Virus record (IMG/VR): IMGVR_UViG_3300026521_000161
Span: 1 to 64,000 of that record
Strand: one strand, 5' to 3'
DNA from: a virus
Length of the DNA stretch: 64,000 nt
The position numbers and the translations under genes were made by a program. The number at the start of each line of letters is the position of its first letter. The stretch's first letter is position 1. Of this stretch, positions 10,428 to 62,399 are shown piece after piece. The notes under the pieces were generated by a model. The model did no database searches and was not told the origin of the DNA. It saw nothing but the letters and a program-made list of their open reading frames with translations.

Positions 10428-10451
10428 CTAGTAACGTATATACGTTACTAG
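10428..10451 (-). terminator. Terminator of the UvsW-like helicase gene
   Basis: Perfect palindrome CTAGTAACGTA / TACGTTACTAG overlapping the stop codon, followed on the minus strand by a T-rich run. Confidence 0.8.
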
Positions 10452-13400
10452 ATGAATTCCCTATATTCGATAGACTTAATATTTTTAGCTCTCTTCCTGA
10501 ATAACTTCATTCTGTTATGGTTATATGTTTTATGTTGTCTTATATCAGACGACCATATATAAACAAAATCCATCTTCTTACCTTTTAAATCTCTAAGTCT
10601 ACCTAATGTCTGCAAGTTAGCTTGCACGCTATCGACATTAACAGTTTGTATAACTGTTACTAGGTTAGGAATATCTAATGCGGTACCGGCACTTTGTAAC
10701 GTACTAATAATAATATCGGACTTCTCTATAACATCGTAACCATCCTCCTCTGTATACTTACTGATATTAAGTTTAAGTTTTGTTCTTAAATAATCAGCCA
10801 TCATCACACACATTTTAACTGTACCCATGAATATCATAAGCTTATCATCTTTAGCTCTTTTCTTAACATAGAAACCTAATGTTAAACCATATATCATCTT
10901 TAGATAATTATTTAGTATCCTTCTATTTTTTATAATAGAATTCTCTAACATTGGCTGGTTGTATCCGAAGTTGTTTTTAAACCTTATAAGCTTTCTCTGC
11001 ATGAATCTAAACCTAACAGATGTTATGTATATATAAGGTTTATACTTAACTATATTAGAAGCTCTATTACTCTCCGGGAACATGATGTGGTACATCTTAT
11101 CTAGTTCTTTATCTTTAGTAACTAATGTAGCTGTAATACCTATAAATAACTTTATATTACTAAACAACATAGTCTTATAAACATTAAAGAACTCTTGATG
11201 TGTTTCATCATTAAGAACTATTTCTGTACCTAGTGCATCGAATAAGTCATCTGGTGATAGATCTGTATACTCCGTTAATTCACCAGTTAGATATCTCTTA
11301 ACTAAGTAATTCAACGTTGTTAACGATATGATGAAACATTTATATCTCTTAGCTAATTCTTCATTGTGCATGAGGTTAACAAGATTTGTTAAACCTTTAA
11401 CTATACATATCTCATCTCTCTTTATATCTGTGAGAGTTGTTATGTCATCTACCCATTTATCTATGTATCTAGGTAAAACTATCATAGAGAATGTTTTATT
11501 TATTCTGGACATAGATGCCATGGATATGAACGTGTTGTGTGTTACTATATAATCTTTAACAACAAAGAGTTTATCTTTATTATCCACAGATATACATACG
11601 GCTTCCTCTTTTACAGATTTCTCTATAGAAACTATACGTAGTTTAAGATTATGACTATATTGGTTCTTATCCTTTAATCTATCTCTACGTTTAGGTAATG
11701 TTACTATATCTCTAGGGTTTTTGACACGTATATGTAGTCTATACGATAGCCTACCACGTTTCTTCTCTCCTTTATGTGTATAGTATGTATATCTAGTACC
11801 TACGCTACACATTCCTCCAAGACTCCTAACTAATAACTGTACGTCTTTAGCTAACTGTTCACTAGTAGTACTATAAGAGGCCCCGCCATTTATACCTACT
11901 TCTCCATCTGTATCCATTAAACCACGTAATAGTTCGTATCTCTGTTCTAACGATCCCTCCATGTATTCTTCCGGTATGAACTTAGACCACGCGCGCTTAT
12001 CATATAGACCATATTCCCTAAGAGCTTCGCGCATATCTATATCGGGTTTATTACGTAGGTCTTGAAAAAGTATGGAGAATGTTTTAAAGTCCTTTTTTCT
12101 ACGTATTTTGTAACCTTCATTAATGAACTTACCAACTCTATTAAAAACGTGATCAGAAACATTAGTTATCTCTAGTGCTGGCATATGTCCATCCCCTAAA
12201 AGAGCACCCATAACATATGGATGTATCTTAAGATACATAGGTTCTTTATCCATAGGCTCTGGTAGATCTATATAATACCGACTACCATCTTTCTTACCCT
12301 TAACTGTATCTAGATAGTTCATGATATCTTCGGTAGTTAATACCTTAGCACTCATGTTTTTACCGATCGTATCAAAATTAGTTAGTTTAGGTAATTCATC
12401 TTCTATATCCATGATAGTATCTACATATATATCAACAGCTATAAAATCTGTACCTGGTACTTTATCGATATGTGCTATACCCATAAGACTTTCCACTAAC
12501 GCCACTATCTGTTTAGCATATGCTAATGTATCACAAATGATCCTAGGACCACCATTACCTTTTATAATACCATCTAGTAAATCTTTACGTTGCTTAGGTA
12601 AGCCAGAAAGATATCTACCTGGTATAAAGAAACCATTATTATCCGGACCTAGTTTAAGTAGGTTAAGCTGTCTCATGATAGCGTGTTTTTGTATCTTTTC
12701 ATTAACATGCTTTATATATAAAACACCATCATTAACTTCTGTATAGAATATGTCCCTTAAGCCATTGTTAATCTTATTTATATCATATCCAGAGAGGTTA
12801 GGTATATCTAAAACAACATTGGCTTGCTTACTACCTATCATTAGACCTAATAGAAATGGATCTATTATATAGTTACGGTATTTATAATTTTTAACACTTC
12901 TTTTAGTGAACAGATAAGAATGCACTGTCCATAAGTGATCTAGACCTGCCTCTATTGTTCTACCGTCCGAAAATGTTACTTTATATAATTGCATTATACC
13001 TTGCGGATATACGCCAGTAACCGTTGTCTCTAACCCATCCCTTCCTATAACTTTTTCGCCCCTTCTAACGTCTCCTATACGCTTCCAGCCATGCTTTAGA
13101 CGTATAGGTGTATCACAGCTTATCATCTTCCCGTAACCTGTGAAAAGATCGATGAGCACGTTATGTTTGTTGAATTCAGTTATCTTTTGTATATAGGTCT
13201 CTTGATAATCCCTTGGTATATAATTGGGATTAAGTTCTATATTTACATCGTTACCAATGATAGGTTTAAAAGCTTCTACGCGTATGTTATCTTTTTCTAT
13301 TCCCATATTCTGTAAGAAAGTTGTGAGGCTATCTAATAACGTTATAGGGTAACGTAGTTGATCCTGTTTAACATTATATCCCTCTTCTCTTGTCTCTGTT

Positions 13401-13579
13401 ATATAGAAATGTTTATCTGGTTTAGTTACTACTTGTGGTTTTCTACTATTATTAACTTTCATTAACGCTATCTTGTGTGTTATAAGTGATTTATTAAAAT
13501 CATATAGTGTATGTAAAAGCTTACTATAGTTATCACTCGTAACAGTGAAATACTGACTATACTTCTTGATGAAAATCAT
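10448..13579 (-). CDS. UvsW-like SF2 helicase interrupted by a class 3 intein
   Basis: 1043 residues before splicing and about 512 after. The extein is an SF2 helicase: Q-like RDYQETYIQK, P-loop FTGYGK/T (148-151 plus 683), DEAD-box position VLNDETHQE, motif III GITATL, and C-terminal ISTLQSAGTALD and LGRLRDLKGKK for motifs V-VI. UvsW-type helicases act on recombination and replication forks. The intein spans residues 152-682. The gene follows the RNAP beta-prime part, the slot where I recall a helicase (gp75) in phiKZ. Splicing must succeed for ATPase activity because the intein splits the P-loop between Lys and Thr. Confidence 0.8.
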   Translation of the reverse strand: MIFIKKYSQYFTVTSDNYSKLLHTLYDFNKSLITHKIALMKVNNSRKPQVVTKPDKHFYITETREEGYNVKQDQLRYPITLLDSLTTFLQNMGIEKDNIRVEAFKPIIGNDVNIELNPNYIPRDYQETYIQKITEFNKHNVLIDLFTGYGKMISCDTPIRLKHGWKRIGDVRRGEKVIGRDGLETTVTGVYPQGIMQLYKVTFSDGRTIEAGLDHLWTVHSYLFTKRSVKNYKYRNYIIDPFLLGLMIGSKQANVVLDIPNLSGYDINKINNGLRDIFYTEVNDGVLYIKHVNEKIQKHAIMRQLNLLKLGPDNNGFFIPGRYLSGLPKQRKDLLDGIIKGNGGPRIICDTLAYAKQIVALVESLMGIAHIDKVPGTDFIAVDIYVDTIMDIEDELPKLTNFDTIGKNMSAKVLTTEDIMNYLDTVKGKKDGSRYYIDLPEPMDKEPMYLKIHPYVMGALLGDGHMPALEITNVSDHVFNRVGKFINEGYKIRRKKDFKTFSILFQDLRNKPDIDMREALREYGLYDKRAWSKFIPEEYMEGSLEQRYELLRGLMDTDGEVGINGGASYSTTSEQLAKDVQLLVRSLGGMCSVGTRYTYYTHKGEKKRGRLSYRLHIRVKNPRDIVTLPKRRDRLKDKNQYSHNLKLRIVSIEKSVKEEAVCISVDNKDKLFVVKDYIVTHNTFISMASMSRINKTFSMIVLPRYIDKWVDDITTLTDIKRDEICIVKGLTNLVNLMHNEELAKRYKCFIISLTTLNYLVKRYLTGELTEYTDLSPDDLFDALGTEIVLNDETHQEFFNVYKTMLFSNIKLFIGITATLVTKDKELDKMYHIMFPESNRASNIVKYKPYIYITSVRFRFMQRKLIRFKNNFGYNQPMLENSIIKNRRILNNYLKMIYGLTLGFYVKKRAKDDKLMIFMGTVKMCVMMADYLRTKLKLNISKYTEEDGYDVIEKSDIIISTLQSAGTALDIPNLVTVIQTVNVDSVQANLQTLGRLRDLKGKKMDFVYIWSSDIRQHKTYNHNRMKLFRKRAKNIKSIEYREFI
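11534..13126 (-). mobile_element. Intein 1 (class 3 type) with a tandem LAGLIDADG region
   Basis: Residues 152-682 of the helicase, 531 aa. It starts MISCDTPIRL, so position 1 is Met, not Cys/Ser/Ala, and ends IVTHN before Thr+1. It carries the W-C-T triad of class 3 inteins: W217 (DHLWTV), C662 (AVCISV) and T680 (VTHN). It has two LAGLIDADG-like pairs. The first (FLLGLMIGS at 242-250, LLDGIIKGNG at 334-343) lacks the catalytic Asp. The second (VMGALLGDG at 456-464, LLRGLMDTDG at 550-559) keeps both. The second pair may therefore be an active homing endonuclease. Confidence 0.85.
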
Positions 13580-15737: not shown

Positions 15738-16751
15738 TTACTCCTTATCTTCTGCTAGATCTGATTCATCTACATCACTGATATTAGTTATATCTGTGAT
15801 ATATTCCTCAACACTGTTTTCCTCGTACTCGTACTCTGATTGGGTTTCAGGCACATATTCTAATTCCATACCTATAGAATTCCATAATGATGTTAATATA
15901 GTCAACCCACGTTCTCTACCATATGGCGTCACTGATCTATCTATAATAGTATCTATAGATGTTGGTGTGCCATTAGTTAATAATTTACTATACACTTCCT
16001 CATGTGACTCTATAGACGTATTAAGATCTTTTAACTCAGCTAAGAACTCTCTACCACCATAGGCAGCGAATATACGTCCCTCTGTTTCACCTTGTGTTCT
16101 AACAGGACTATTCTTAGCAGGTAACCTATATCTATCATTTTTGCTTGTAACGATAGGTATACCAAAATGATTTAATTTAGCAGAACTAGTAGTTAATACT
16201 GTATCAGCTATCTTACTTAACATAAAGATATACATAGGCGCTATCATAACTGGATCTTCCGAAGTACGCGGCCTACCATCATATGTAAATTTTACCTTAT
16301 CGTAAACTGGTTTATAAATAGATTTATCTAAATCCTTTATAATCTCATACTTACGTTTTTCATTATCGGTAGTTAGGTAAGCTCTAAATCTATCATATAT
16401 GATCTCCTCTACTACAGATAGCATAGACTCTCTATCATTATTGTGTAGTATACCGTTATAAACATCAAACATACCATTACCTAATATACCCATGAAATCC
16501 CTAGCATGCAGGAATAGATTTTTAAGCTGTACATCTGTTAACTCATATGGTTCCGTTACATTATACCTTTTATATTCGTCTCTTACAATGCGCTCTAACT
16601 TCAGCATAGATGCTTTAGTAGTAGCTTCATAAGGACCACCTATATTAAGCCTAGATATAGTAGATTTCGGATCCACTATCATCTCCGCTCTATTACCGTC
16701 TTTATCGATAGGCATCTCTTCATCAGGCCATACCGATACAATTGTACCTTT
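15738..16751 (-). CDS. RNA polymerase beta subunit, C-terminal part, exon 2
   Basis: The exon encodes 337 residues starting KGTIVSVWPDEEMPIDKDGN, which aligns with the beta segment after GRHGNKG that leads to MP(I/F/Y)D and SRLNIG. Later PVRTQGETEGRIFAAYGG matches the clamp-contacting GxQxxGEMExWALxAYGA region of beta. The exon start was set by protein continuity and by the intron ending in G. It ends 2 nt before the beta-prime part gene. Joined to exon 1 (18664-19875) it gives about 741 residues, the counterpart of phiKZ gp71-73. Confidence 0.85.
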   Translation of the reverse strand, partial: KGTIVSVWPDEEMPIDKDGNRAEMIVDPKSTISRLNIGGPYEATTKASMLKLERIVRDEYKRYNVTEPYELTDVQLKNLFLHARDFMGILGNGMFDVYNGILHNNDRESMLSVVEEIIYDRFRAYLTTDNEKRKYEIIKDLDKSIYKPVYDKVKFTYDGRPRTSEDPVMIAPMYIFMLSKIADTVLTTSSAKLNHFGIPIVTSKNDRYRLPAKNSPVRTQGETEGRIFAAYGGREFLAELKDLNTSIESHEEVYSKLLTNGTPTSIDTIIDRSVTPYGRERGLTILTSLWNSIGMELEYVPETQSEYEYEENSVEEYITDITNISDVDESDLAEDKE

Positions 16752-18663
16752 CGAATATGTTCAAGTGGCTCGCTACACCACCCCGCGTCTCTAAACGCTG
16801 CTCACTCTCTCGAATGAAGACTTGGTCGATTACCAAGAATGACTTTCGTCGTCCAGACTATATCTAATCCCTTATTACTAAGGGCCGAAACATTTCCATT
16901 TAAGGGATTTTATACCCACCTGCTTAGGCCGTACTCCCTGGTGAGGGGATAGTCGTTGAGCCCACACGCTCCATATAGGATGTATCTCTACGTTTAAGGT
17001 GCTTCGCTGCGTCGGTTACCTAATCTCATAAGGTTTTTACTATGCTTAACTCTTCCATTACTGGGTTAAGTATCATAGTCTGTTTCCAGCTATGAGTAGT
17101 ACTTATGAGCTCTAAAGGCGTCCCCGTCATTAGTATCGTTCTAAGTTATAAGATTACTCCTATAACTGGCTTACATAATATTCCATTACATTAATCTATC
17201 TGTATAATCTTCAGGCTTCGCATCTCCTGGAAGATTAAGATCTTTCTTCATATCTTCAAAAGTCTGATACGACTTTCCATTATATGTGTATTTATAAAAC
17301 TCACGTAATATTTTACGTAGTTCACCTTCTATACTCTGAAACTTTGTGTTATGTAGTATATTTAATCTAACTTTCATCTTCTTAGCTATCTCTGCTTTTT
17401 GAGCATCGTTAGTCTGTACTTCTTTAAGTAGGTCATTACCGCCCCATGCCTTAATAGGAATGTAGTGTTGGTTACCATTGTACTCTATGAAGATGTTAAG
17501 TCTGTTAAGATAGAAGTCATACTTGTATTTGTAATCTTTGATACCGTATTCTCTTTCATGCTCTATACCGAATTTATTAAGAACACGCTCTATCTCTTTC
17601 TCATTCTTAGACCCAGCACATAGTAAACAACCCCTACCTCTAAGATGCTCGTTAGCAACTTGCTGGAAATCCCCATGAACAGGACACCCTATAGTTACTG
17701 TATCCAATGTTGTTCTAAATGATACTTTACTATAATCATATCTGTTGTTATGTATTTCATTAGCTTTAGATATGAACTCCGATACATCTGTCCTACGATT
17801 ATCGTTATAACATTTACTACAACCTCTACCCTCTAGATGTCCATCCAGCCTCTGCTCGAATTCACCATGTATAGGACAAATAATAGTACCCTTATGAGCA
17901 ACACTCTTGAATATAAGTTTACTATAATCGTACTTGTTGTTATGTACCTTATTAGCCCTCTCTATAAATCCATCTCTACCCATACTAGTGTTATTGGCAG
18001 CTTTATCTCTACCGCACCTAGCACAACCGAACCCTGCTAAATGACTACTAGGTAATTGTTTAAAATCACCATGGACTGGACACGTTATGATAACGTGTTT
18101 GGTAACACCTTTATAATCTGTTTTACCATAGCTATACTTTTTACCGTGTTTGGCCTCAGCTTCCCTAATAAAATCTTCAGTAGTTCTTTTAGGTCCAGCT
18201 GAACATTTAGGACATCCCTGTCCAATTAGATGCTTGTCTGGTCTCTTATCAAAATCACCGTGTATAGGACACCCTATCACAACAGCTGTTCTATTGTTAA
18301 TATAGTTAACTTTAGAATAATCATATTTATCGCCATGGATTTTACGAGCTTTAGCTACGAACTTATCTGCGTTAGATGATATACTACTATGTGCTTTCTT
18401 TTTACCGCATTCTGGACAACCACTACCCTTAAGAAAATTATTTGGTGTTGGGTAAAAGCTACCGTGGATGGGGCATATAACTTCTATGTCTTCTTTACTA
18501 CCTTTGTATACGACTTTACTGAAATCGTATTTGGTACCTAACCTTCTGGCTTTCTCTAAAAACGTTTCTGTTGTTAACGCTTTAGCCATTTCATATCCTT
18601 TTGTTTTATTTGCGAATTTGTGTTTGTAATTGGAATATCAGTCTTTACCTACCGGTAAATCAC
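16752..18663 (-). ncRNA. Group I intron B in the RNAP beta gene
   Basis: A 1912-nt group I intron on the minus strand. P7 strands are visible (CGACTATCCCC at 16945-16955 and GATATAGTC at 16856-16864). The core 16950-17130 covaries with intron A. The 5' exon ends in T and the intron ends in G, as the class requires. Splicing joins MGG to KGT, restoring KFTNLMGGKG, which aligns with the universally conserved KLTGRHGNKG of beta. The P1 pairing is less clear than in intron A, so the 5' site rests mainly on protein continuity. It carries its own homing endonuclease gene. phiKZ also has an intron with an endonuclease (gp72) in this gene. Confidence 0.88.
17186..18589 (-). CDS. Intron-encoded homing endonuclease, five zinc-type modules plus EDxHD/Vsr-like nuclease
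   Basis: 467 residues. Residues 1-330 hold five tandem modules of about 60 residues. Each starts FxxKAxxxHxxKYDYSKxxY and has CP(I/V)HGxF followed by GxGCxxC, together a plausible Cys-His-Cys-Cys metal site for sequence-specific DNA binding. The last 140 residues are a nuclease domain of the PD-(D/E)xK/Vsr-like EDxHD type: YKYDFYLNRLNIFIEYNGNQHY with Asp, Glu and His in the expected order. It lies between P1 and the intron core. It would cut intronless RNAP beta genes and spread the intron. Confidence 0.82.
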   Translation of the reverse strand: MAKALTTETFLEKARRLGTKYDFSKVVYKGSKEDIEVICPIHGSFYPTPNNFLKGSGCPECGKKKAHSSISSNADKFVAKARKIHGDKYDYSKVNYINNRTAVVIGCPIHGDFDKRPDKHLIGQGCPKCSAGPKRTTEDFIREAEAKHGKKYSYGKTDYKGVTKHVIITCPVHGDFKQLPSSHLAGFGCARCGRDKAANNTSMGRDGFIERANKVHNNKYDYSKLIFKSVAHKGTIICPIHGEFEQRLDGHLEGRGCSKCYNDNRRTDVSEFISKANEIHNNRYDYSKVSFRTTLDTVTIGCPVHGDFQQVANEHLRGRGCLLCAGSKNEKEIERVLNKFGIEHEREYGIKDYKYKYDFYLNRLNIFIEYNGNQHYIPIKAWGGNDLLKEVQTNDAQKAEIAKKMKVRLNILHNTKFQSIEGELRKILREFYKYTYNGKSYQTFEDMKKDLNLPGDAKPEDYTDRLM

Positions 18664-19875
18664 ACCACCCATTAAATTAGTAAATTTATTCTTTACCCCC
18701 GGAGTTAATTCATACTCGATAGTAAATTCTATTCTGAAAAGATCTAGGGATTCTTTTCTGTATGTTTTCTTACGCTTGGTGCCATAGTGACTCGAATCTA
18801 AAATACCGTACGCTTCTACTAGCAAAGCATTGAATGCATTACTTACAGTTATGTCTTTGTTAAACATTCTTTTATAATCCCTATTAATAGATTCATATGT
18901 CTCTACTATCTGATTATAGTATGCTAATAAAGCATCTGAGTATTTAACTAAATATTTTTCTGTACCTGCTGGTAATGCTCTCTTTCTCTTAGGCGAATAA
19001 TAGACTTTGATATCTACTATCTTACCTTTATTACCTCTAGTATATACAGCTTCATCGAACAAGGGGTTAAAGTCTTGTGTATCTTTAACGCTTGTTAAAC
19101 ATGGCGCGTATAAAGGGTTATTTTTTCTTACGGCAGCTACTACGCCTGTATCGTTGATATATTCACCTATCTCTGGGAACGGTTTATAGTTATCATCATC
19201 ACCATAGATATTAAGTAAGAATGAATCTTCACCTGCTTCCACTACACGCTTATCAAAGATCTTGAATTTAAATTTGTTACAGAAGCTTTCAGATACTACG
19301 AAACCATCTTCGTCTACTTCAGGTAGAGTCATAGTTGCTACGTTGATATCTTTACCGAAGCCATAACCTCCGTCGTCTAATACGGTAGGAGGTACAGCTA
19401 ATTGAGTATCTTTTGGTAGGACGTCACCTCTTACATAAGAGTCTAGTTCTTCATTAAGCTTATACTTAAATCCGAAATAGGGATGGAAAGTATTAGAATA
19501 AGGTATATCTACTATATCTAATTCACCTGTTTCTAGATCTCTTATGATAACTAATCTAGATGTTGTTTTGTTGTCTTCTCCTAAGATATTATATCTCTTG
19601 ATAACAGCTAAGACTTCAGAATCATTATCTACTTGTTTGGCTACAGTATATTTTCTTAATTCTGATTCTAAACCTGTTTGTAACATGTTTTCTTCTGGTT
19701 CGTTGATAACAACTAATTGTGCTATATGACTAGACATCATAAGACCACGTGGTGACGAGTTATGCTCTACGAACGGGTTGATGGCCGCCATAGAGAACAT
19801 CTTCTTATTGAGCTGGAGATCTGGGTCTTGCTCCACATATGAATCTATATGATCTTTATAGTTAAATTCACTCAT
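18664..19875 (-). CDS. RNA polymerase beta subunit, C-terminal part, exon 1
   Basis: Encodes 404 residues: RGLMMSSHIAQ (as in beta MGANMQRQAV), then DGYGFGKDINVATMTLPEVDEDGFVVSE, matching the beta pattern LAxGxxLxNxLVAFMPWxGYNFEDAI/VxSE, and RGNKGKIVDIKVY. It ends KFTNLMGG at the intron. Without splicing the protein would stop four residues later (VIYR). The class 1 promoter lies at 19900-19926. Together with exon 2 it forms the active-site half of beta in the non-virion RNAP. Confidence 0.85.
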
Positions 19876-59309: not shown

Positions 59310-62300
59310 ATGGAAAAGTATAAGAGTTTAAAATACATTTATAATAATAGAACTAAGAGATATACCATATACATAGATAATGTAGATCTTATAAAAGATG
59401 GTATAAAACATATCATAGGTAGAAGTGCTAGTAGGATACTTATAATAAAAGATAAGAAGACACAGTTTGATATCTATAGTTTCTTCTTATTAGAGTTAGA
59501 GCATACATTAGAAACATTAAAAGAGACTAGACCGGACTTAGCTGTTAAGATAGGTGGTATAGTACTTAATGATCTTATGAGTTTCCTTAAGACTAAAACA
59601 TGGTTAGCTGAACGTAATCATAAATCAGTAGTTAACGTATTAGATTATAATAATATTAGATCAGTTATGAAATATACGTTATTACCTCACCAAGTAGAAG
59701 TATTTAAGAAATATGAAGTTGTTAAACGTATGGCTAACCTTAGAGGATTCATGATGGATCTAGGAGCTGGGCAAGGTAAGATGGAAAAGAATGGTACACC
59801 AGTTAAAACACCTACTGGTTGGACTAATATAGAAAAGCTTAAGGTAGGCGATAAAGTTATAGGTAGTAATGGCAGACCAACTACTGTAACTGGTGTGTTC
59901 CCGCAAGGTAGGTTACCGTTAGTTAGGTTAAAGTTTGAAGATAATAGATATAGCGATGTAGGGCATGAACATCTATGGAGTGTTTCTGTAAATAATAAAT
60001 GGTCTGTTATGAAAACTTCTAAAATAATGAAATACATAGATAAAGGAAAAGATATTTATATACCTCTTATAGATTATAAGGTAAATAAGAATGATGTAGT
60101 AGATGAGCATTATATACATCCTTACCTAGTAGGAGTTATATTAGCTAGCGGTAGTAAGGTTAAGTGTATTAATGTAACCATAGATAAGGAACATGATAAA
60201 GTTAAATCTATATTACCAGAAGAGTATAGTCTATATAAAGATATTAACACATATCACGATACGCATAACCATAGGTTATTTTATAATGGTAAAGGTGATT
60301 GTAAGATAACTAAGCAGCTAAAGAAACTCAATATCTTTAATGGTAGAGACATAGTACCGGCACTACCAGCTAGTTATGAACACGGTTCTTATCTGACTAG
60401 AGTAGAGTTACTTAATGGTATATTAAATACTTCAGGAACTAACACTAAAGGTAATATCACTTACACAGAAGTTAAAGATATAAAGCTAGCTAACGTTATA
60501 AAAAGATTAGCATGGACTTTAGGGGATATAGCTTCCATACGTAAAGTTATAAGAACTACTAGATTAGGTTATGAATATACAGCATATGTGGTTAAGATAG
60601 TTAAAGAAAAGATCATTAAGATAACTGGTTATACAGAGTTACCAGAGCATGAAGCAACATGTATATCTGTATCTGCTAAAAATAAACTATATGTTACAAA
60701 AGACTATATAGTAACACATAACACATTTTCTTCATTAGCGTTAGGTGAAGCTCTTTCTTATAACAATGTTATAGTTATAGCTCCTAGCGCTACCATAGAT
60801 GACGTATGGGTTAAATCTGTTACAAAAGAGTTATATAAATCACCACAGCCTTATTTTGTTCTTAATAGTAAAAATAGGGATTATAAAAAAGAAAGATTTC
60901 TGATAATGAGTTACGAGACATTAGATAAGGTTAATAAAGATAAGAAATTGTTAAGAATGCTTAAGAGACTTAATCCTATGCTGATAGTGGACGAGTTCCA
61001 TAACTTTAACAATATCAAGGCTTTAAGAACATTTAACCTTATGGAGTTTGTTAAGAGAGTTGATTTTCAAGATGTTGTATTACTAACAGGTACGCCTGTG
61101 AAGATGAGCCTTAATGAACTTAAACCTATGTTATATATACTAGACGATAAGTTTAAATCTATAGTAGATATGTATGATGATTTCTACAGAGGTAGATATG
61201 AAATGTTTAGGAATAGATTCGACGTATATAGGAAACATGTTCCTAAAGATACTAAATCATTACCTCCTATTAAAATATCTGAATATAGAGTACAAATACC
61301 AGATAGTGATAGATTTACTCTAAAGGTAATTAATGAAGAGATAAAAGAGTTTAAGCTTAAACGTATGGAAGAGATAATGAGTAAGATGGATATATATGAG
61401 TCTATATACGAAGCAGCTCTTAATGAAGTATTTGTTTCTATGGTTACGTCAGGTATTAAAAAAGGCGAAGCTAATAAGTTATTATCTGATTATAGGAAAC
61501 TAGTTAAGTCTATAAGAAAGTTTAATAAAGATAAAAAGTTATATATGGCTCAGAATGATATCATAAGTGCTCGAGAAATGGAAAAAGAGATAATTTTAAG
61601 TAATCTATCTAGTAAAAGTAAAAAAGCTTTTAAAGACGTTATAAGCATCATTAAGTATCCAGAGCTTAAAGTACTTGGTGAAGCATTGGGCAAAGTGTTG
61701 TTAGGTACTAGAATAAAGTGTTATAACGAATTAGCCAAACATATTAACTACAAGAACATCCTATTATTAACAGATAAGAAAGGTATCGTATTTAGTAATT
61801 ATGTTAGTACATGTAAAGTAGCTATAAATAAAGCTACTAAGGATGGTTATAAACCTGTAGGTGTATTTGGTGATTTAGTAGAGAAACTACCTGTTTCTGT
61901 TAAAGCGTTCAATGATTTAAAAGATAAGACAAATCCTATAGTAGCTACTTATAAATCATTATCAACCGGTGTTCCTTTAGTAGCTGGTAACATAGTTATA
62001 TTACTAGACACTCCTGTTAGGAATTATCTACTAGACCAATCTATATCTAGAGCATGGAGGATAGGTCAGGATAGACCAGTAGAGGTATTAATGGTTAAAT
62101 TAGATACTGAAGGTAAATTAAATATAACAGATAGAGACCATTATATTTTAAATATGTCTACACAGAATGTAGAAATGATAACAGGTAATGTTAACCCTTT
62201 CGAGATACCACAACAGATAATGATAGAGGATGATATAGTAGATGAAGAAGATGAAGCTATACTAGATATGGAAAATACAGTTAAAGAAGAACTTAAGTCA

Positions 62301-62399
62301 TCTTTATTAAATAATATTAATTCAAATATGGTTAGTACAGATGAAGATAATACGAGTGTGTTAGGTAATATAATAAATAAATTTAAGTTTAAATTATAA
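59310..62399 (+). CDS. SNF2-like helicase interrupted by a class 3 intein
   Basis: 1029 residues before splicing, 715 after. Extein motifs: LLPHQVEVFKK (Q/Ia lead-in), P-loop DLGAGQGK/T (150-157 plus 472), VIVIAPSATIDDVW (Ia), MLIVDEFHNF (II), LLTGTPVKM (III), VFSNYVSTCKV, ATYKSLSTGVPL (V) and SISRAWRIGQDRPVEV (VI), typical of SNF2-family ATPases that move on double-stranded DNA or remodel complexes. The C-tail (residues 960-1029) is acidic. The intein covers 158-471 and must be removed to restore the P-loop. Confidence 0.82.
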   Translation: MEKYKSLKYIYNNRTKRYTIYIDNVDLIKDGIKHIIGRSASRILIIKDKKTQFDIYSFFLLELEHTLETLKETRPDLAVKIGGIVLNDLMSFLKTKTWLAERNHKSVVNVLDYNNIRSVMKYTLLPHQVEVFKKYEVVKRMANLRGFMMDLGAGQGKMEKNGTPVKTPTGWTNIEKLKVGDKVIGSNGRPTTVTGVFPQGRLPLVRLKFEDNRYSDVGHEHLWSVSVNNKWSVMKTSKIMKYIDKGKDIYIPLIDYKVNKNDVVDEHYIHPYLVGVILASGSKVKCINVTIDKEHDKVKSILPEEYSLYKDINTYHDTHNHRLFYNGKGDCKITKQLKKLNIFNGRDIVPALPASYEHGSYLTRVELLNGILNTSGTNTKGNITYTEVKDIKLANVIKRLAWTLGDIASIRKVIRTTRLGYEYTAYVVKIVKEKIIKITGYTELPEHEATCISVSAKNKLYVTKDYIVTHNTFSSLALGEALSYNNVIVIAPSATIDDVWVKSVTKELYKSPQPYFVLNSKNRDYKKERFLIMSYETLDKVNKDKKLLRMLKRLNPMLIVDEFHNFNNIKALRTFNLMEFVKRVDFQDVVLLTGTPVKMSLNELKPMLYILDDKFKSIVDMYDDFYRGRYEMFRNRFDVYRKHVPKDTKSLPPIKISEYRVQIPDSDRFTLKVINEEIKEFKLKRMEEIMSKMDIYESIYEAALNEVFVSMVTSGIKKGEANKLLSDYRKLVKSIRKFNKDKKLYMAQNDIISAREMEKEIILSNLSSKSKKAFKDVISIIKYPELKVLGEALGKVLLGTRIKCYNELAKHINYKNILLLTDKKGIVFSNYVSTCKVAINKATKDGYKPVGVFGDLVEKLPVSVKAFNDLKDKTNPIVATYKSLSTGVPLVAGNIVILLDTPVRNYLLDQSISRAWRIGQDRPVEVLMVKLDTEGKLNITDRDHYILNMSTQNVEMITGNVNPFEIPQQIMIEDDIVDEEDEAILDMENTVKEELKSSLLNNINSNMVSTDEDNTSVLGNIINKFKFKL
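59781..60722 (+). mobile_element. Intein 2 (class 3 type) with an inactivated homing endonuclease
   Basis: Residues 158-471, 314 aa. Starts MEKNGTPVKTPTGW (Met at position 1), ends IVTHN before Thr+1. W-C-T triad: W223 (HLWSV), C451 (ATCISV), T469. LAGLIDADG remnants YLVGVILASGS (272-282) and LLNGILNTSG (367-376) have Ser in place of both catalytic Asp, so the endonuclease should be dead. Same insertion point in the P-loop (GK/T) as intein 1. Confidence 0.85.

Follow-up and report, generated by a model that had tools for sequence, protein, structure and literature searches.

A class 3 intein in a phiKZ-like phage helicase with a degenerate and an apparently intact LAGLIDADG domain in tandem

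The SF2 helicase encoded in the analysed stretch of viral DNA (the window, 64 kb of a 106-kb IMG/VR record) is interrupted by an unusually long intein (intein 1) that contains two LAGLIDADG folds in tandem. The first domain (D1) has lost its catalytic residues, and the second (D2) retains them. Taken as a whole, the structure is probably best explained as a class 3 intein with a resident, active D2 and an added, decayed D1 that is carried as a passenger.

The record encodes a phiKZ-type capsid protein, a divergent family B DNA polymerase and a divergent DnaB, and thus is a fragment of a phiKZ-like jumbo phage. The search for closer relatives of the phage gave four pattern matches to its capsid protein, none of which is a relative. 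The helicase ORF (window 10448-13579, minus strand, 1043 residues) is of the phiKZ-like phage type (ResIII match at residues 121-151; phrog_16, DNA helicase), and RNA polymerase genes adjoin it in the same manner as in isolated phiKZ-like phages. An RNA polymerase beta gene is apparently split (15738-19875, minus strand). The part at 18649-19875 corresponds to positions 9-403 of phrog_3295 and the part at 15738-16715 (minus strand) to positions 416-695, with a DUF723/homing-endonuclease-like ORF (17186-18589) between them. A group I intron around this ORF was considered and rejected, as no Rfam match was obtained. A further intein of the window (intein 2; 59781..60722, plus strand, 314 residues), located in the SNF2-type helicase ORF 59310-62399, was used as a comparator. 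Intein 2 is inserted at GQGK^T, begins with Met1 and contains one LAGLIDADG pair that is dead at all three catalytic positions.

Intein 1 comprises residues 152-682 of the helicase (window 11534-13126, minus strand) and splits the Walker A motif at GYGK^T. Re-reading of the ORF gave the same limits and the same length of 531 residues as the original prediction. The residue after GYGK is a Met, and the Cys, Ser or Thr nucleophile is therefore absent from position 1. The W-C-T triplet is present, with the Trp in block B (HLWTV), the Cys at block F:4 (AVCISV) and the Thr at +1 (HN/T). The closest PDB sequence match of intein 1 is the class 3 DnaB intein of Mycobacterium smegmatis (6bs8), in which the W-C-T residues are aligned with those of intein 1. 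By this signature intein 1 is a class 3 intein, and from the W-C-T triplet we infer splicing via a branched intermediate on the internal Cys. In the class 3 route the block F Cys would be the first nucleophile, followed by Thr+1 and cyclisation of the Asn, and the Walker A motif would be rejoined. The mycobacterial class 3 DnaB mini-inteins (6bs8, 6rix) have the splicing fold and the class 3 residues in common with intein 1, but their solved forms are without an endonuclease and belong to a different host protein. The parts of the interrupted helicase, all on the minus strand of the window, are as follows.

13127..13579, minus strand: N-extein, residues 1-151 of the SF2 helicase, ending in the first Walker A half GYGK (ResIII 121-151, phrog_16).
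12923..13126, minus strand: N-terminal splicing half, residues 152-219, blocks A and B with Met1 and the Trp in HLWTV (alignment; AF2 pLDDT >95).
12356..12922, minus strand: D1, degenerate extra LAGLIDADG domain, residues 220-408, between block B and the usual linker (alignment, profile, AF2, structure matches).
12827..12853, minus strand: D1 motif 1, LLGLMIGSK, residues 243-251, S in place of the catalytic D (sequence).
12551..12580, minus strand: D1 motif 2, LLDGIIKGNG, residues 334-343, N in place of the catalytic D (sequence).
12239..12355, minus strand: family-typical linker ..AKVLTTEDIM..YYIDLPEP.., residues 409-447 (alignment).
11651..12238, minus strand: D2, intact LAGLIDADG domain, residues 448-643, homologous to the single domain of other same-site inteins (alignment, profile, AF2).
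12188..12214, minus strand: D2 motif 1, VMGALLGDG, residues 456-464, D kept (sequence).
11903..11932, minus strand: D2 motif 2, LLRGLMDTDG, residues 550-559, D kept (sequence; Pfam).
11534..11650, minus strand: C-terminal splicing half, residues 644-682, blocks F and G with the Cys in AVCISV and the terminal HN (alignment).
10451..11533, minus strand: C-extein from Thr+1, with the remaining Walker A motif, the DETH box and helicase C (domain matches); the stop codon is at 10448-10450.

The four motifs lie at the positions originally predicted for them, with the first at residues 243-251 rather than 242-250. A nested arrangement, an intein within an intein, was rejected, as the sequences flanking D1 in the alignment contain no further set of splicing blocks.

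Profile and structural comparisons showed that D1 and D2 are separate LAGLIDADG domains. With a LAGLIDADG profile from which it had been left out, D1 cut out alone scored 38.9 bits, compared with a maximum of 4.9 bits in 2000 shuffles. A profile from the inteins of other phages gave 222 bits for D2 and 33 bits for D1 in the same search. The stand-alone AF2 model of D1, for which the input was an alignment with 80 LAGLIDADG domains from related viral loci, has a pLDDT of 77 and a pTM of 0.73. The model exhibits the pseudo-twofold alpha-beta-beta-alpha fold with the two motif helices (H22-31 and H109-123) and paired strands. Structural comparisons of the model showed matches with TliVMA (Z 13.0, 169 residues, rmsd 3.7), PI-SceI (Z about 12.5), I-DmoI (Z 9.7, 141 residues, rmsd 3.3) and WhiA (Z 9.7), and nearly all the top rows from Foldseek and VIA are LAGLIDADG proteins. 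In the AF2 model of the whole intein, the confidence is above 90 for most residues of the splicing halves and D2 and about 45 for D1, because no other row of the alignment covers D1. The identity of D1 to its relatives is only about 16-28%, and Pfam reports no match in D1, its LAGLIDADG_3 match covering part of D2; both observations would fit another fold with a chance resemblance to the motifs, and hence a single endonuclease. The gap between the D1 score and the shuffles, together with the dominance of LAGLIDADG proteins among the structural matches, makes such a fold very improbable. D1 was also considered as a DNA recognition region of the PI-SceI type, which was rejected as D1 is itself a full LAGLIDADG fold. 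Thus, the structure prediction that had been proposed as a check resulted in two separate folds and not in a single one, and a tandem of two LAGLIDADG folds in one class 3 intein is established.

The two domains differ in their catalytic residues. The residues at the positions of the two catalytic Asp and the conserved Lys are S, N and F in D1, D, D and K in D2, and S, S and P in intein 2. The acidic residues expected in both motifs of a LAGLIDADG homing endonuclease are therefore replaced in D1, whereas the two LAGLIDADG helices of D2 each carry the catalytic Asp, as originally described for a degenerate first and an intact second pair. The D/D/K set is nearly invariant in the relatives, in a census biased by the partial use of the DTDG pattern in finding them. 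The alignment showed that D1 is without about 25 residues of the second hairpin. The net charge is -4 for D1 and +11 for D2, compared with a family median of +6. The terminal branches in an 87-row tree are 6.2 changes per column for D1, 0.81 for D2 and 3.5 for intein 2. The GC content of D1 is 31%, like that of the exteins, and gives no sign of a recent import. Judged by its sequence, D1 is a degenerate relative of the LAGLIDADG endonucleases that no longer works as one. D2 presumably cuts intein-free alleles of the helicase, and this cleavage would bring about homing of the intein.

Comparison with the inteins of related helicases showed how D1 is placed. Eleven single-domain inteins of 342-364 residues are located at exactly the same helicase site, and all 11 align in the order of N-terminal splicing half, linker (..VLTTEDIM..), D2 and C-terminal half, with no D1. 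In this alignment D1 stands out as a single insert of about 185 residues that separates HLWTV from the linker. Five inteins at the same site are reduced (EL, 248 residues; AhC3, 231; KpXa, 197; L043, 291; L044, 213). The same-site class 3 inteins (Serratia BUCT660, Proteus 10, Erwinia Rebecca, Salmonella SA002, Xanthomonas LucasX and others) have the host gene, the Walker A insertion point, the splicing halves, the linker and the D2-type endonuclease in common with intein 1, and their host gene lies mostly beside an RNA polymerase gene, likewise in the window. However, these phiKZ-like inteins have one LAGLIDADG domain or are reduced (197-364 residues) and none contains D1, in comparison with the 531 residues of intein 1. 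Across the family, the similarity profile of D2 matches that of the C-terminal splicing half (98th percentile of controls), and its agreement with that of the N-terminal half is ordinary (62nd percentile). The nearest helicase found (L042, 5560-7101, plus strand, 40% identity) has an empty intein site (LFTGYGKTTLSMA), showing that intein-free alleles exist. Yet this helicase may itself be no target of D2, because its empty site agrees with the window at only 14 of the 24 central bases.

The tandem is rare among inteins of this kind. When 340 loci (IMG/VR, GTDB genomes and named phages) were screened with profiles, 255 distinct inteins were obtained, a sample drawn with single-domain queries and therefore possibly biased against odd architectures. 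The lengths have a median of 351 residues and a 99th percentile of 414. Intein 1 is the longest (529 residues by the measure of the screen, the next being 418). Two overlapping full-domain matches occur in intein 1 and in none of the other 254. The inteins of 408-418 residues have a single domain with an insertion, and the LAGLIDADG domain in these (L296, L321, L091, L118 and L004) is apparently split by the insertion between its halves. Three loci (L004, L077 and L080) contain two complete class 3 inteins per ORF, about 40 residues apart in L004. All intein endonucleases are said to occupy one conserved insertion site (PMC6801210). A search of largely open-access literature found no paper on two endonuclease domains in one intein. 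An intein holding both a dead LAGLIDADG domain and an apparently live one is a real and rare arrangement.

For the parentage of D1, a site-heterogeneous model was used to build a tree of 87 rows. D1 does not join intein 2 in this tree, although such a grouping of the first half had been predicted; when forced, it is 33 lnL worse than the free tree (p-AU 0.097), which is not a formal rejection. When D1 was constrained to group with D2, the resulting tree gained 9 lnL over the free tree (p-AU 0.70). A simpler placement scan with 49 rows has its leading placements within about 2 lnL, with D2 at 0.5 and intein 2 at 1.8 from the best. By blastp, the E value is 1e-7 for D1 and D2 and 0.033 for D1 and intein 2, and D2 has rank 26 among the phmmer matches of D1. 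D1 scored 37.6 bits with profiles of jumbo-phage helicase inteins and 31.9 bits with those of other class 3 inteins. These comparisons point to an origin of D1 somewhere in the broad family of class 3 intein LAGLIDADG domains, which would allow a duplication from D2, and a descent shared with intein 2 appears less likely. With about 6 changes per site, the branch of D1 is so long that the domain can be neither dated nor placed.

Read most simply, the aligned sequences make D2 the resident endonuclease and D1 an addition to the linker that later decayed, the opposite of the order originally proposed. D2 looks resident because all the full-size same-site inteins have a single domain that aligns with D2, together with the linker, and because the similarity profiles of D2 match those of the C-terminal half. 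This order is an argument from parsimony of the architecture and not a proof, the placement of D1 being left undecided by the 49-row scan. Unequal recombination would yield the same layout and could have joined the N-terminal half and the dead D1 of one intein to the linker, D2 and C-terminal half of another. In the order preferred here, duplication, or recombination with another class 3 intein, would have placed a LAGLIDADG domain of the same broad family in the linker between block B and D2. This domain would then have lost the catalytic residues, part of the second hairpin and the positive charge, and would persist as a folded, non-cleaving domain in a zone tolerant of bulky inserts. D1 most likely persists as a passenger, since a bulky insert is tolerated in the linker zone and any deletion has to preserve the reading frame.

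The original prediction held that D1 was the first endonuclease, that it decayed and that D2 then invaded downstream, leaving a record of two homing cycles. The much greater divergence of D1 than of D2 fits this order, and the same-site inteins with eroded endonucleases (EL, AhC3, KpXa, L043 and L044) make a decayed host for re-invasion plausible. However, the same-site relatives have the D2-type domain, the same linker and the same junction between D2 and the C-terminal half, the profiles tie D2 to the C-terminal splicing half, and the grouping of D1 with intein 2 is disfavoured. Since the same-site single domains align with D2 and the linker, an invasion by D2 after the decay of D1 is unsupported, and we consider it unlikely; to read intein 1 as the fossil record of two homing cycles is possible, though unproven. 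A tandem may also have arisen by internal duplication or by unequal crossover of two class 3 inteins, with both copies active and the redundant one decaying without any separate invasion. This is a sub-case of the explanation with D2 as resident, one that commits D1 to being a copy of D2 or of the domain of a sister intein. The better likelihood of the D1 and D2 clade, the lower blastp E value for D1 with D2 than with intein 2 and, slightly, the higher score with the jumbo-phage helicase-intein profiles speak for such a copy. However, D2 is not the top phmmer match of D1 and the 49-row scan leaves the placements unseparated, so that this origin of the tandem is possible but still doubtful.

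Retention of D1 for use, as a DNA-recognition or scaffold module that aids site-finding by D2 or holds the splicing halves, has its own precedents. WhiA is a case in which catalytically dead LAGLIDADG domains are in use, and it is among the structural matches of D1. The fold of D1 is almost complete, and D1 has not been deleted, unlike the endonuclease parts of the reduced same-site inteins. In the MjaTFIIB intein, a degenerate endonuclease supports splicing (PMC6801210). However, the negative net charge of D1 against a positive family median and the lost hairpin speak against DNA binding, the long branch indicates little constraint, and the 11 single-domain same-site inteins manage without D1. 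A use of this kind therefore appears rather improbable, and a D1 carried as a passenger beside the resident D2 is preferred.

Dead and active LAGLIDADG domains are known from separate inteins. The PhoVMA intein (7qst) has a degenerate endonuclease and the TliVMA intein (7qss/7qsu) an active one (PMC8966425). In both, the LAGLIDADG domain is located inside the intein and is structurally matched by D1, whereas intein 1 combines a dead and an apparently live domain in one intein. The nearest analogue found, with two homing endonucleases in one mobile element, is the fungal group I intron cox2-i1 of Hypomyces aurantius (PMC4964425). However, cox2-i1 is an RNA intron in which the second ORF interrupts the GIY-YIG-like one, whereas intein 1 is a polypeptide with two LAGLIDADG domains.

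The two domains might represent successive endonuclease captures by one intein, a new LAGLIDADG domain having been taken up beside a dying one, although we regard this as unlikely. If true, the intein would have been re-mobilised without first passing through a mini-intein stage. In the homing-cycle model, the endonuclease is gained, decays and is lost between cycles. With one dead and one apparently live LAGLIDADG domain, intein 1 is a rare intermediate with overlapping gain and decay, and it shows that two domains are tolerated in the zone where endonucleases are usually inserted. If closer relatives could fix the order of events, the acquisition of endonucleases by inteins, a long-standing question, would become directly visible in intein 1.
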